The notes under the pieces are model-generated. The model was not told the DNA's origin. It did no database searches and was given only the letters and a program-made list of their open reading frames with translations. The position numbers and the translations under genes were made by a program. 64,000 nucleotides of DNA from Candidatus Pantoea edessiphila (GTDB lineage: Bacteria > Pseudomonadota > Gammaproteobacteria > Enterobacterales > Enterobacteriaceae), in contig NZ_PDKU01000001.1 of NCBI RefSeq assembly GCF_002933355.1, positions 248,001 to 312,000 on the forward strand, given 5' to 3'. How positions within the stretch are numbered: position 1 is the stretch's first letter; every line of letters begins with the position of its first letter. Of this stretch, positions 31,910-37,268 are shown piece after piece.

Positions 31910-33310
31910 ATGAATTTAGTATCTATAGCAGATATGTTAAATGGTCGTGTTTTAATTAATGATATAGTAACCATAAGTGGTTGGGTACGTACTAGAAGAG
32001 ATTCTAAAGCTGGTTATTCATTTATTACGATTTATGATGGTTCTTGTTTTAACAATATGCAAGTTGTTGCTAATGATGCCTTAAACAATTATAAAGATAT
32101 AATATTGCATCTGACAACTGGATGTTCGGTTATTATAACTGGAATTATAGTAAATTCTCCCGGTGATTGTCAAAAAATTGAAATTCAAGCCACTAAACTA
32201 GAAGTAGTAGGTTGGGTAGAAAAATCTAGTAGCTATCCTATGGCAGCAAAAAATCATAGTATGGAATATTTGCGCGAAATGGCTCACTTACGTCCTCGTA
32301 CTAATATAATTGGTGCTATAGCTCGTGTACGCCATACATTAGCTCATGCTTTACATGAATTTTTCAATGAAAAAGGATATTTCTGGATACCTACTCCAAT
32401 TATTACATCATCTGATACTGAAGGTGCTGGAAAGATGTTTCGTGTGTCTACTTTAGATATGGAAGAACCACCACATAATAAGGAAGGAAACATTGATTTC
32501 AATAAAGATTTTTTTGGAAAGGAAACTTTTTTGACTGTTTCTGGTCAATTAAATGCCGAGGCTTATGCCAGTGCTTTATCAAAAGTATATACTTTTGGTC
32601 CTACGTTTCGTGCTGAAAATTCTAATACTAGTCGTCATTTATCTGAATTTTGGATGTTGGAACCAGAACTAGCATTTGCAACATTAGATGACATTGCTGT
32701 ATTAGCTGAATCAATGCTAAAATACGTGTTTAACATAGTTCTCAAAGAACGCAAAGAAGATATGGAATTTTTTGCTGAACGTATTAATAAAAATATCATT
32801 AAACGTTTAGAATACTTTCTTACTGTTAAGTTTGCAGATATAAATTATAATGAAGCTATTAATCTTTTAATAAATTCTAAAAAAATATTCGACAATAATG
32901 TTCATTGGGGAATGGATATGTCTTCTGAACATGAACGTTACTTAGTAGAAGAATATTTTAAAATACCAGTAATAGTTAAAAATTATCCAAAAGAAGTTAA
33001 GGCTTTTTATATGCGCTTAAATAAAGATGGTAAAACTGTTGCTTCAATGGATGTATTAGTACCAGGACTAGGTGAGTTAATTGGTGGTTCTCAGCGTGAA
33101 GAACGTATTGAAGTATTAAATATTAGGCTTAAAGAACTAGGATTAAAAAAACAAGATTACTGGTGGTATTGTGATTTACGGCGTTATGGTACGGTTCCTC
33201 ATTCAGGTTTTGGATTAGGATTTGAACGCTTAATTTCGTTTGTTACTGGTGTTCAGAATATTAGAGATGTAGTTCCATTTCCTCGTACTCCGCGTAATGC
33301 AAATTTTTAA
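31910..33310 (+). CDS. asnS: Asparaginyl-tRNA synthetase
   Basis: A class II synthetase that charges tRNA-Asn. The 466 residues equal E. coli. An N-terminal OB-fold anticodon-binding domain (ISGWVRTRR) is followed by the class II core with motif 2 ([20 protein letters not shown]) and motif 3 (GFGLGFERL). An AGAGAT purine stretch lies upstream of the ATG. In E. coli asnS, ompF and aspC are neighbours, and the same trio occurs here in one orientation. The cell therefore charges asparagine directly. The host porin downstream is very Asn-rich. Confidence 0.97.
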
Positions 33311-33540: not shown

Positions 33541-35970
33541 ATGGTTAGGCAAAAAATTTTTATAGCAGCCATGTTAACTATTTTAATTAATGGTGCAACA
33601 AATGCAGTAGAAGTTTATAATAAAAATAATACCAAATTAGATTTATATGGTAAAATTGATGGATTACATTATTTTACTCCTAATGCAATACATAGAAATA
33701 CTTCTTTTAATTACAGAAGTCATTATTTTGTTTTTAATTTTCCACATGGCGAAGACAATACTGGCATAGATAAAAGTCGTGCTAATTTTGGGTTTAAAGT
33801 TGAATCTTTATTAGATGATAAAATAATAGGTTATGGACAATTACAATATCAATCTACACTTGATTCACCAGAAACAACTATAAATTCTAGTAGTAACGCA
33901 AATTTAGGTTTTGTTGGTTTTAAGTTTCCATTTGGATCTATTGATTACGGACGTAATTATGGCATTATTAGTGACGTGAGTAAATGGACTAACATATTAC
34001 CGGAATTTGGTGGTAGTTCAGAATACACAGATAATTTTTTAGTTGGAAGAAATAGTGGACTGTTGACTTACCGTAATAAAAATTTCTTCGGACTTATAAA
34101 AAATTTAGATTTTGCTGTTCAATATCAAAGTCAACGTTTTCCTAGTTTTTATGTTTCAAATTTTAATGGAAATACTCTAGGAATATCAGTTTCTTATGTT
34201 TCTCCTATGGGATTAGGTATAAGTGCTGCATATGGAAACAGCACACTTGTAAATCAAGTAGATAAGCCAAGTTCATCTTCGACATTTGTTTCAATCAAAC
34301 ATAAGCCGTTACGTAGATTTAAGCTGCATAAATTTAATAAAGCAAATAATTCGCATCCAAATAATTTAAATCCAAATGATTCGAATCCAAATAATTCGCA
34401 TCCAAATAATTTAAATCCAAATGATTCGCATCCAAATAATTCGAATCCAAATGATTGGCATCCAAATGATTGGCATCCAAATAATTGGCATCCAAATAAT
34501 TTAAATCCAAATGATTCGCATCCAAATAATTCGAATCCAAATGATTCGCATCCAAATAATTCGAATCCAAATGATTGGCATCCAAATGATTGGCATCCAA
34601 ATAATTGGCATCCAAATAATTTAAATCCAAATGATTCGCATCCAAATAATTCGAATCCAAATAATTCGAATCCAAATAATTCGAATCCAAATAATTGGCA
34701 TCCAGTTTATTTGAATCCAAATGATTGGGACCCAAATGATTCGGACCCAACTCATTGGAACTCAAATAATTGGAATCCAAGTTATTCGAATCCAAATAAT
34801 TGGAACCCAAATTATTCGAGCCCAAATAATTGGAATCCAAGTGATTGGAACTCAAGTAATTGGGGCCCAAATTATTCGAACCCAAATAATTGGAACTCAA
34901 ATGATTCGAATCCAAATGATTCGAATCCAAATAATTCGAATCCAAATAATTCGAATCCAAATAATTCGAATCCAAATAATTCGAATCCAAATAATTCGAA
35001 TCCAAAAACTGATAATGTCAAATCTGAATTATTTGTACAAAATAATCAAAGTAGTATAGAAGAAGATGAGCAGAAAGAGATAGAAGAGTTTGATAATCAA
35101 AATAAAAACAAATATAAAGAAAACGACGAATATTTAGGTAATAAATATAGATTTTTTTATGATAGTTTAGAGAAAGATTTTGAAAACAATAACAACAAAA
35201 ATATAAATCAAGATAGTGATCAAAATGATACAGATAAAGATTTTGAAAACAATAACAACAAAAATATAAATCAAGATAGTGATCAAAACAATCAAGATAA
35301 CGACAAAAACATAAATACCGATAAAAACGACAAAAACATAAATACCGATAAAAACGACAAAAACATAAATACCGATAAAAACGACAAAAACATAAATACC
35401 GATAAAAACGACAAAAACATAAATACCGATAAAAACGACAAAAACATAAATACCGATAAAAACGACAAAAACATAAATACCGATAAAAACGACAAAAACA
35501 TAAATACCGATAAAAATAAAAACAGTGATAAAAAAATAAATCAAGATAATAATAAATTACATTCTATGCCAGATCATGCTATACAGTGGTCTGCTGCAAT
35601 TAAATATGATAAAAATAATGTTTATTTTGCTGCCATGTATGGTGAAACATATACTACAACTTATATAACAGACCCTAAAACCCATTTTAACAATTTTGCA
35701 GATAAAGTGCGTAATTTTGAAATCGTTGCACAATATAAATTTGATTTTGGTTTTCGTCCTTCTGTAGCATATGTTGAATCAAAATTTAAAAATACTAAAG
35801 GTAATGATACATATATTTATAGATATCTCGAAATTGGTGCTACCTATGATATTAGTAAAAATATGTCAACATATGTTGACTATCGCATCAATCAAACACA
35901 ACCAGACCGTCTATTTAATTTCAATGGTCCAGATAATGTTTTAGCTATAGGATTAGTTTATAAGTTTTAA
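33541..35970 (+). CDS. ompF: OmpF-type trimeric porin with giant repeat-filled loop L5
   Basis: A general porin at the E. coli ompF locus (asnS-ompF-aspC). The signal peptide ends NGATNA/VE. The barrel parts align throughout: VYNKNNTKLDLYGK at the start, the constriction-loop motif LPEFGGSSEYTDNF, and the terminal phenylalanine in LVYKF. The product is 809 residues rather than about 360. The extra 450 lie between GLGISAAYGNS (about 224-234) and AIQWSAAIKYD (about 680), exactly where extracellular loop L5 belongs. The insert has 44 Asn/Pro pentapeptides (269-488), a charged linker, two 21-residue repeats (545-586) and eight 9-residue repeats (587-658). The frame is intact, so a functional barrel carrying a large surface domain is likely. 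A GAGG ribosome site lies 10 bases before the ATG. Confidence 0.93.
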   Translation: MVRQKIFIAAMLTILINGATNAVEVYNKNNTKLDLYGKIDGLHYFTPNAIHRNTSFNYRSHYFVFNFPHGEDNTGIDKSRANFGFKVESLLDDKIIGYGQLQYQSTLDSPETTINSSSNANLGFVGFKFPFGSIDYGRNYGIISDVSKWTNILPEFGGSSEYTDNFLVGRNSGLLTYRNKNFFGLIKNLDFAVQYQSQRFPSFYVSNFNGNTLGISVSYVSPMGLGISAAYGNSTLVNQVDKPSSSSTFVSIKHKPLRRFKLHKFNKANNSHPNNLNPNDSNPNNSHPNNLNPNDSHPNNSNPNDWHPNDWHPNNWHPNNLNPNDSHPNNSNPNDSHPNNSNPNDWHPNDWHPNNWHPNNLNPNDSHPNNSNPNNSNPNNSNPNNWHPVYLNPNDWDPNDSDPTHWNSNNWNPSYSNPNNWNPNYSSPNNWNPSDWNSSNWGPNYSNPNNWNSNDSNPNDSNPNNSNPNNSNPNNSNPNNSNPNNSNPKTDNVKSELFVQNNQSSIEEDEQKEIEEFDNQNKNKYKENDEYLGNKYRFFYDSLEKDFENNNNKNINQDSDQNDTDKDFENNNNKNINQDSDQNNQDNDKNINTDKNDKNINTDKNDKNINTDKNDKNINTDKNDKNINTDKNDKNINTDKNDKNINTDKNDKNINTDKNKNSDKKINQDNNKLHSMPDHAIQWSAAIKYDKNNVYFAAMYGETYTTTYITDPKTHFNNFADKVRNFEIVAQYKFDFGFRPSVAYVESKFKNTKGNDTYIYRYLEIGATYDISKNMSTYVDYRINQTQPDRLFNFNGPDNVLAIGLVYKF
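34345..35004 (+). repeat. 44-copy 15-bp tandem repeat encoding Asn/Pro pentapeptides
   Basis: 660 bp made of exactly 44 in-frame 15-bp units, base consensus CCAAATAATTCGAAT, encoding N-[N/D]-[S/W/L]-[N/H]-P. Units 1-24 are dominated by SHP, LNP and WHP forms, units 25-37 are degenerate (for example VYLNP, THWNS, SYSNP, NYSSP), and units 38-44 are nearly uniform N-N/D-SNP. Because 15 is a multiple of 3, several other frames stay open through the block. The array has no spacers. Confidence 0.97.
34414..34660 (+). repeat. 120-bp higher-order tandem duplication within the pentapeptide array
   Basis: Eight consecutive pentapeptide units are duplicated in tandem with a 120-bp period. The bases of 34441-34500 and 34561-34620 are identical, and identity extends from about 34414 to about 34540 against the next copy. 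It lies in the left, WHP-rich part of the array and indicates a recent block duplication rather than single-unit slippage. Confidence 0.85.
35173..35298 (+). repeat. Two-copy 63-bp repeat in the porin insert
   Basis: Units 35173-35235 and 35236-35298 each encode 21 residues beginning KDFENNNNKNINQDSD. The first 16 to 18 codons are nearly identical; the ends differ (NDTD against NNQD). It follows a charged linker rich in Glu, Asp, Lys and Asn, and leads directly into the 27-bp array. Confidence 0.9.
35299..35514 (+). repeat. Eight identical 27-bp tandem repeats in the porin insert
   Basis: Eight units of 27 bp, each encoding NDKNINTDK (porin residues 587-658), with no base differences between copies that I can see. 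The frame is kept because 27 is a multiple of 3. Perfect identity in an AT-rich, fast-evolving genome suggests very recent expansion or continuing homogenisation, so copy number is likely to vary between strains. Confidence 0.95.
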
Positions 35971-35988: not shown

Positions 35989-36017
35989 AAAAAAACGGAG
36001 CATTAGTTCCGTTTTTT
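35989..36017 (+). terminator. Porin terminator
   Basis: An A-tract followed by CGGA, a short loop (GCATTAGT), TCCG and six T (36012-36017) forms an A/T-flanked hairpin 20 bp after the porin stop. It has the classic shape of an intrinsic terminator and lies 60 bp before the aspC start. Confidence 0.85.
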
Positions 36018-36077: not shown

Positions 36078-37268
36078 ATGTTTGAATCGATTTTATCCGC
36101 ACCAAACGATCCTATTTTGGGACTAGCTGATTTATTTTATGCAGATGATCGGTCCAACAAAATCAATCTTGGAATAGGTGTTTATAAAGACAATTTTGGT
36201 AAAACTCCTATTCTTAACAGTGTTAAAAAAGCAGAAAGCATTTTATTAGAACAAGAAACTACTAAAACTTATCTAAGTATTGAAGGTATGTTGGATTTTG
36301 CTAGTTTTACGCAAAATCTATTATTTGAAAAAAACAATTTAAGTATTACAAAAAATCATATACGTACTGCTCAGACTATAGGTGGTACAGGAGCATTAAG
36401 AATAGCTGCAGATTTTATATTAACACAAACTTCTACAAAACGTATTTGGATTAGCAATCCAAGTTGGCCTAATCATAAAAACATATTTAGTACTGCAGGT
36501 TTTGAAATTTATTATTATCCATATTATGATAATCAATATCATACATTAGCATTTGATCGTATGATAGACTCATTAAAAAATGCTAAAGCTGGAGATATCT
36601 TACTATTGCACGGATGTTGCCATAATCCAACAGGGGTTGATTTAGATATTGAACAATGGAAATATTTAGCAGAAATATCTTACAATAATGGTTTATTGCC
36701 ACTATTTGACTTTGCTTATCAAGGATTTGCACATAATATACATGAAGATGCTCAAGGACTACGTATGTTTTTAAAATTACATGAAGAAATGATTATTGCT
36801 AGTTCTTATTCGAAAAATTTTAGTTTGTATAATGAAAGAGTTGGTGCAATAACTTTGGTAGCATCAAGTACTAAAATAGTTGATAATGCTTTTAGCCAAA
36901 TAAAATCTGTTATTCGTTCTAATTATTCTAATCCACCAGCGCATGGTGCTAAAATATTAACAACTATTTCTGCAGATCGTTTATTATATAAACTTTGGGA
37001 ACAGGAATTGTTAAGTATGAACATGCGAATAAAGAACATGCGTGCTTTATTTGTGAACACTTTAATTAATAATAATGTGCAAAAAGATCTTAAGTTCATT
37101 ACCAAACATCAAGGTATGTTTTCATGTATAGATCTAAATCAAGAACAGATCCTAAAATTACATGAAAAATTTGGTATTTATATTATAAATTCTGGTCGTA
37201 TAAATTTTGCAGGTATTACTCCTTATAATATATCTTTTTTATGTAATGCTATAAAAAAAGTTCTTTAA
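36078..37268 (+). CDS. aspC: Aspartate aminotransferase AspC
   Basis: A PLP enzyme that interconverts aspartate/oxaloacetate and glutamate/2-oxoglutarate; it also transaminates aromatic keto acids. It has 396 residues, the same as E. coli. The N-terminus [10 protein letters not shown], the motif [10 protein letters not shown], and the PLP lysine in [14 protein letters not shown] near residue 246 are conserved. TyrB is a close paralogue, but position next to ompF and asnS supports aspC. It is convergent with gloC. Confidence 0.95.

Follow-up and report, generated by a model that had tools for sequence, protein, structure and literature searches.

Lineage-specific tandem repeats in external loop L5 of the OmpF-type porin of Candidatus Pantoea edessiphila and its relatives

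The OmpF-type porin of this Candidatus Pantoea edessiphila genome carries 448 residues, largely built of tandem repeats, between the conserved barrel anchors of its external loop L5. Judged from sequence, the strongest facts are that in relatives this very loop is built of different repeats and that their clade gives no match to LpxC or LptD; with them the observation extends beyond the single window (the whole stretch of DNA that was analysed, 64 kb). The explanation that we consider fairly probable is a recurrent birth of in-frame repeats at permissive disordered sites, by which a hydrophilic polymer, perhaps weakly useful, would be displayed outside the cell. The initial annotation of this DNA had described the insert and read it as a surface domain probably kept by selection; the observation is confirmed, and the interpretation is partly supported.

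The porin and its L5 insert

The features of the gene, the insert and the neighbourhood are collected in Table 1.

Table 1. Features of the porin gene and its surroundings (positions in the window; residue numbers of the porin).
Feature	Position	Strand	Basis
asnS, conserved neighbour upstream	31910..33310	+	ORF list, NCBIfam, order compared with E. coli K-12
OmpF-type porin gene, 809 aa, with L5 insert	33541..35970	+	ORF, Pfam, phmmer, AlphaFold, Foldseek, NCBIfam
Signal peptide, residues 1-22	33541..33606	+	alignment to OmpF
Barrel strands 1-9, residues 31-235, including constriction loop LPEFGG	33631..34245	+	AlphaFold, phmmer
L1, residues 46-79, moderately enlarged, without repeats	33676..33777	+	alignment, AlphaFold strands
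L5 insert, residues 234-681, 448 aa between conserved barrel anchors	34240..35583	+	anchor alignment
Array 1: 15-nt unit (NNSNP and variants), 44.3 copies, 83% matches	34343..35006	+	TRF score 775
Acidic stretch without repeats, residues 489-541	35005..35163	+	sequence, AlphaFold
Array 2: 63-nt unit, 1.9 copies	35169..35288	+	TRF score 233
Array 3: 27-nt unit (NDKNINTDK), 8.1 copies, 100% matches	35299..35516	+	TRF score 436
Barrel strands 10-16, residues 679-808, then final Phe	35575..35964	+	phmmer, AlphaFold
Terminator-like hairpin and T-rich tail, directly 3' of ompF	35990..36017	+	consensus match only
aspC-type aminotransferase gene, conserved neighbour downstream	36078..37268	+	ORF list, NCBIfam, E. 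coli K-12 order

The frame is uninterrupted, exactly as annotated, and its product belongs to Porin_1 (PF00267; 248.5 bits against a gathering threshold of 23.7, E 1.6e-73). With phmmer, OmpF (3hw9) was aligned to residues 2-238 and 679-809, final Phe included, with a large gap at the position of the insert, which bears out the annotated likeness to OmpF from the signal peptide to the final Phe, PEFGG loop included. The OmpF equivalog NF007446 is the best NCBIfam model, although the score stays under its cut-off (290.2 against 583 bits). The order asnS-ompF-aspC, common to the window and E. coli K-12, marks the gene as the OmpF orthologue by position. In the whole genome (837,119 bp in 12 contigs) the profile search returned one porin gene at the threshold used; the second match is weak (E 6.2e-4) and comes from the repeats of this very gene, read on its opposite strand. 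Large reverse-strand ORFs also overlie the arrays and look like by-products of repeat periods divisible by 3.

The fold, the constriction loop, the C-terminal Phe and the gene order are those of the OmpF/OmpC/PhoE general porins of Enterobacterales (PF00267), from which the protein differs in its largely repeat-built L5 (448 residues against 19 in E. coli between the same anchors, in agreement with the ~450 and ~20 of the initial annotation) and in its longer L1. The pairwise dN/dS values of the barrel (0.22-0.51 in 10 pairs) indicate purifying selection on this part. As the barrel is conserved, the protein probably works as an OmpF-type diffusion porin.

The AlphaFold model of the 809-residue protein (25 sequences) contains 16 strands, and the best Foldseek match is OmpF (2zfg, TM 0.90 by target length). 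Strand 9 comprises residues 225-235 and strand 10 residues 679-691; therefore, the insert is loop L5, the external loop in which it had been placed. Its annotated borders (232 and 681) stand as far as the position between two strands is concerned, and the residue numbers are replaced by those of the predicted strands. The mean pLDDT of the whole model is as low as 57 because of the insert, where block means are 29-49, except for the last few residues and a region (504-552) in which a helix is predicted with low to middling confidence (41-73). With 32% Asn, 85% hydrophilic residue types and a net charge of -22 in its 448 residues, the insert is well supported by prediction as a mostly disordered hydrophilic polymer on the outer face, as first proposed. 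About 1350 insert residues would be present per trimer, if the protein trimerises like OmpF.

All three tandem-repeat families that had been annotated were found by TRF, but the arrays account for only ~330 of the 448 residues, about three quarters. The rest is mostly the acidic stretch and a Lys/Arg-rich lead-in (35 residues, 234-268). Outside the porin gene, no array with a TRF score above 98 is present in the window. In array 1, codons depart from the consensus unit by 64 non-synonymous and 5 synonymous changes. The argument that the open frame is a sign of selection on the insert does not hold, because the conserved strands 10-16 lie after the insert and a frame break would cost them as well.

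In-frame repeats at this site and elsewhere in the clade

The genus is represented by six genomes, five of the Edessa type and the outgroup G003, all with a porin match. Between the barrel anchors there are 448 residues in the window's genome, 165 in Candidatus Pantoea edessiphila SoET (G005), 118 in G004, 81 in G002 and 39 in G001, compared with 27 in G003. The same loop of the same gene is thus lengthened in frame in the four Edessa-type relatives, with units and lengths that differ from those in the window: the loop is repeat-built in four of the five Edessa-type genomes, and that of G001 has no array. The units are mostly unrelated (NNSNP and NDKNINTDK in the window, NNGPKIDQ in SoET, KDN in both G002 and G004), and the porin frame is open in all five, each with a different loop sequence. 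The SoET porin is 72% identical to that of the window over the N-terminal barrel and is predicted to have the same layout, with strands at 228-238 and 399-411 and a disordered loop between them; a divergent porin is seen in G003 (37% over the part that was matched). All four repeat loops are very hydrophilic (GRAVY -1.77 to -2.21), with net charges of -4, 0 and +7 in the other three (SoET, G004 and G002, values in no set order).

The KDN peptide is encoded by AAA GAT AAC in G002 and by AAG GAT AAT in G004. In a tree from BamA, MreC and OmpA columns, G002 groups with SoET (support 100) and G004 lies outside the group of the remaining four (support 97), and the two lineages with KDN arrays are hence not sisters; the node joining the window's genome to SoET and G002 has a support of 45. 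The different codons and the non-sister positions suggest separate expansions. A shared ancestral KDN array, later rewritten in one lineage, is a possible alternative.

A survey of the family covered 392 genomes, 328 of them with a porin match, and no porin open frame above 426 residues was found outside the genus among the best matches listed. A further search gave a frame of 447 residues (G027), of which ~88 precede the porin start. The porin of G018 (1.1 Mb genome) likewise has an extended external loop, which differs in being a Pro/Ser/Thr-rich insert of ~35-40 residues after strand 11, in L6, with no tandem array. Titles and opening lines of abstracts in the literature on porin loop repeats in symbionts and on repeats in reduced genomes describe no such loop.

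In-frame arrays are also found in other genes. The C-terminal tail of MreC carries a different array in three of the six genomes: the four-residue unit NSSD x16 in the window's genome, a seven-residue unit x15 in SoET and a ten-residue unit x9, the last one shortened, in G001; G002, G004 and G003 have none. At the N-terminus of GrpE, three different six-residue arrays occur in the same three genomes, out of four in which GrpE was found; G004 has an imperfect Ser/Glu-rich stretch, and the gene was found neither in the contig examined for G002 nor in the G003 sample. Of the three genomes in which a PBP5-type carboxypeptidase was found, only G001 shows an array near the N-terminus of the protein (ten-residue unit x5), and the SucB linker carries arrays in two of six genomes, G003 (TRF score 290) and G004 (120, weak). 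MreC and GrpE in the window's genome, SucB in G003 and the PBP5-type protein in G001 were identified with both Pfam and NCBIfam, GrpE in G001 with Pfam only. A protein search yielded the MreC orthologues, and conserved motifs served to recognise the others. GrpE is a cytoplasmic protein, and neither its N-terminus nor the MreC tail is at the cell surface.

The MreC arrays are located at L080:5030-5225 (contig C7 of G000, the window's genome) and in L106 and L107, and the GrpE array of the window's genome at L068:8190-8358 (contig C5). The PBP5-type gene of G001 occupies L142:8681-10009 (-). In SucB of G003 (L199:4900-6186, -), an 11-residue unit x4.8 lies between the lipoyl and catalytic domains, and an oxalate-decarboxylase-type bicupin of the same genome (L206:9455-10618, -) has HPNVT repeats reaching the end of a 10.6 kb contig. 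Further arrays of the window's genome are found on contig C2 (L076:3167-3437; 127 nt x2 and 22 nt x10) and contig C1 (L075:3605-3815; 10 nt x5 and 21 nt x5); no ORF of at least 90 aa overlaps L076:3167-3437 or L075:3701-3815.

Arrays were counted in one homologous contig (341-379 kb) per Edessa-type genome and in ~299 kb of G003, with a mechanical mask of ORFs of at least 100 aa. In the five genomes (1.83 Mb), all 10 arrays with TRF scores of at least 200 are in ORFs, with periods divisible by 3; they belong to ompF (6), grpE (3) and the PBP5-type gene (1), and are therefore not independent. Among arrays scoring 120-200, 7 of 9 are outside ORFs, as are 297 of 410 scoring 50-120. At the level tested, nothing supports a loss of mismatch repair as the driver of the repeats: a MutS_V match is present in all six genomes of the genus.

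The lineage-specific repeats at one site, together with the strain-specific arrays in MreC, GrpE, the PBP5-type protein and SucB, support the repeated birth of repeats at permissive sites. L5 of the OmpF-type porin would be a hot spot in which in-frame tandem repeats arise again and again, presumably by slippage or unequal recombination, with a mostly different unit in each symbiont lineage. The insert would be made and displayed as a loop that projects from the cell, one end fixed to strand 9 and the other to strand 10. Such a long loop may be tolerated as it lies outside the channel, and the surface of a clade without LPS would be less crowded. The resulting layer may be a by-product or weakly useful; it is presumably not essential, since G001 makes do with 39 residues at this place. 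If tolerance were the whole cause, very long arrays would be expected between genes too. In the contigs examined the longest ones are in genes, so that coding context seems to favour length, which is a hint of selection and argues against tolerance alone.

Loss of LPS and the cell surface

LpxC and LptD give no match in any of the five Edessa-type genomes; in G003, LpxC is matched and LptD weakly so (E 1.2e-8). BamA and OmpA are matched in all six genomes of the genus. Synthesis and export of LPS thus appear to be missing in the Edessa-type clade. According to the text of PMC8032781, the Edessa symbionts lack the lipid A pathway except for a few genes (lpxA and kdsC, in some of them) and have also lost O-antigen and ECA, the Brachystethus symbiont SoBr retains the lipid A pathway, and these stink-bug symbionts are extracellular; the word 'porin' does not occur in its main text (term search). 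Within the genus, the long L5 is confined to the clade without LPS, yet it is not present in all members.

These data could mean that, after the loss of lipid A, the general porin carries a selected hydrophilic protein brush, by which a symbiont living extracellularly in the gut recovers some of the steric and barrier functions that LPS sugars provide. We regard this as possible, although on the unlikely side. The retention of BamA and OmpA, the losses described in PMC8032781, the occurrence of both LpxC and LptD in G003, where the loop has 27 residues, the repeat loops of 81-448 residues in four of five lineages, the confinement of the longest arrays to ORFs, and the same KDN peptide written in different codons in two non-sister lineages are all in its favour. 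A broader form, in which the porin was repeatedly and independently rebuilt as the anchor of a brush that replaces the lost glycolipid coat and is regrown by repeat birth in each lineage, is unlikely.

Several observations speak against such a brush. The association is seen in one clade only, and within it the LPS-less G001 has just 39 residues in the loop. No repeat expansion was found in the OmpA and BamA loops of the clade in alignments inspected by eye, and arrays are present in GrpE and MreC too. As to these two outer-membrane proteins, OmpA of G003 (L100) has an Asn/Asp/Ser-rich linker of ~97 residues between the barrel and the C-terminal domain, which is short in the five Edessa-type genomes, and BamA of G003 (L098) has several longer barrel stretches (frame of 888 aa against 805-824).

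Genomes from outside the genus served as a control. The set comprises 51 genomes of at most 1.6 Mb with a porin match, from 34 genera, hand-picked among the survey matches listed and with the window's genus left out. An LpxC match is absent from twenty of these reduced Enterobacteriaceae genomes, which represent 8 genera; the porin frames in this group measure 180-413 residues (median 379), including three short ones of 180-188 residues (G131, G312 and G372). In the other 31 genomes, which have an LpxC match (interrupted by stops in G209), the frames are 345-406 residues long and the median is likewise 379. Loss of LPS is therefore not sufficient for a long porin loop, the general rule fails, and loop extension does not track LPS loss over independent lineages.

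Three points favour selection on the insert: the longest arrays are restricted to genes, the units are hydrophilic, and out of eight loops one was chosen repeatedly. Against it stand the arrays that GrpE and MreC carry too, the extension in G001, which is small and free of repeats, and the porins of other LpxC-less symbionts, which are of normal size, and for this reason the birth of repeats at a permissive site is favoured over a brush that replaces LPS.

Host contact, assembly and wider meaning

The insert could also be an adhesin, an immune decoy or another host-contact domain, with repeats matched to the symbiont's own host species, a role that we find improbable. The repeats do differ by genome, no two Edessa symbiont strains share a host species (PMC8032781, Table 1), and the 64 non-synonymous departures against 5 synonymous ones make the units of array 1 differ in protein sequence, but the copying of units that had already mutated swells this excess. 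Pfam gives Porin_1 only and no known adhesin domain, and GrpE, a protein inside the cell, has strain-specific arrays of this kind as well. That the repeats are misassembled or of wrong length is very improbable indeed: these are draft assemblies (from 2 x 300 bp MiSeq reads for the genomes of PMC8032781, the window's strain being possibly from an earlier paper) and the copy numbers are in doubt for the 664-bp array and the perfect 218-bp one, but all five clade members have an uninterrupted frame, with loops that differ from one assembly to the next, neither flanks nor synteny are disturbed, and array 1 is easier to resolve in assembly because its copies match at 83%.

Low-complexity repeats at the cell surface are shared with the repeat-bearing variable loops of pathogen porins and the NANP repeats of the malaria circumsporozoite protein, a resemblance in kind. 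Those repeats are thought to face host antibodies, and insects have no antibodies.

The repeated birth of repeats at permissive sites would make L5 a repeat hot spot, perhaps with a weak benefit to the cell. For the life of an extracellular Gram-negative cell without LPS, the porin is a candidate surface protein to look at. With different arrays at the same few sites (L5 of OmpF, the MreC tail and the GrpE N-terminus) in related small, reduced genomes, the clade offers a natural experiment in the de novo birth of protein repeats.
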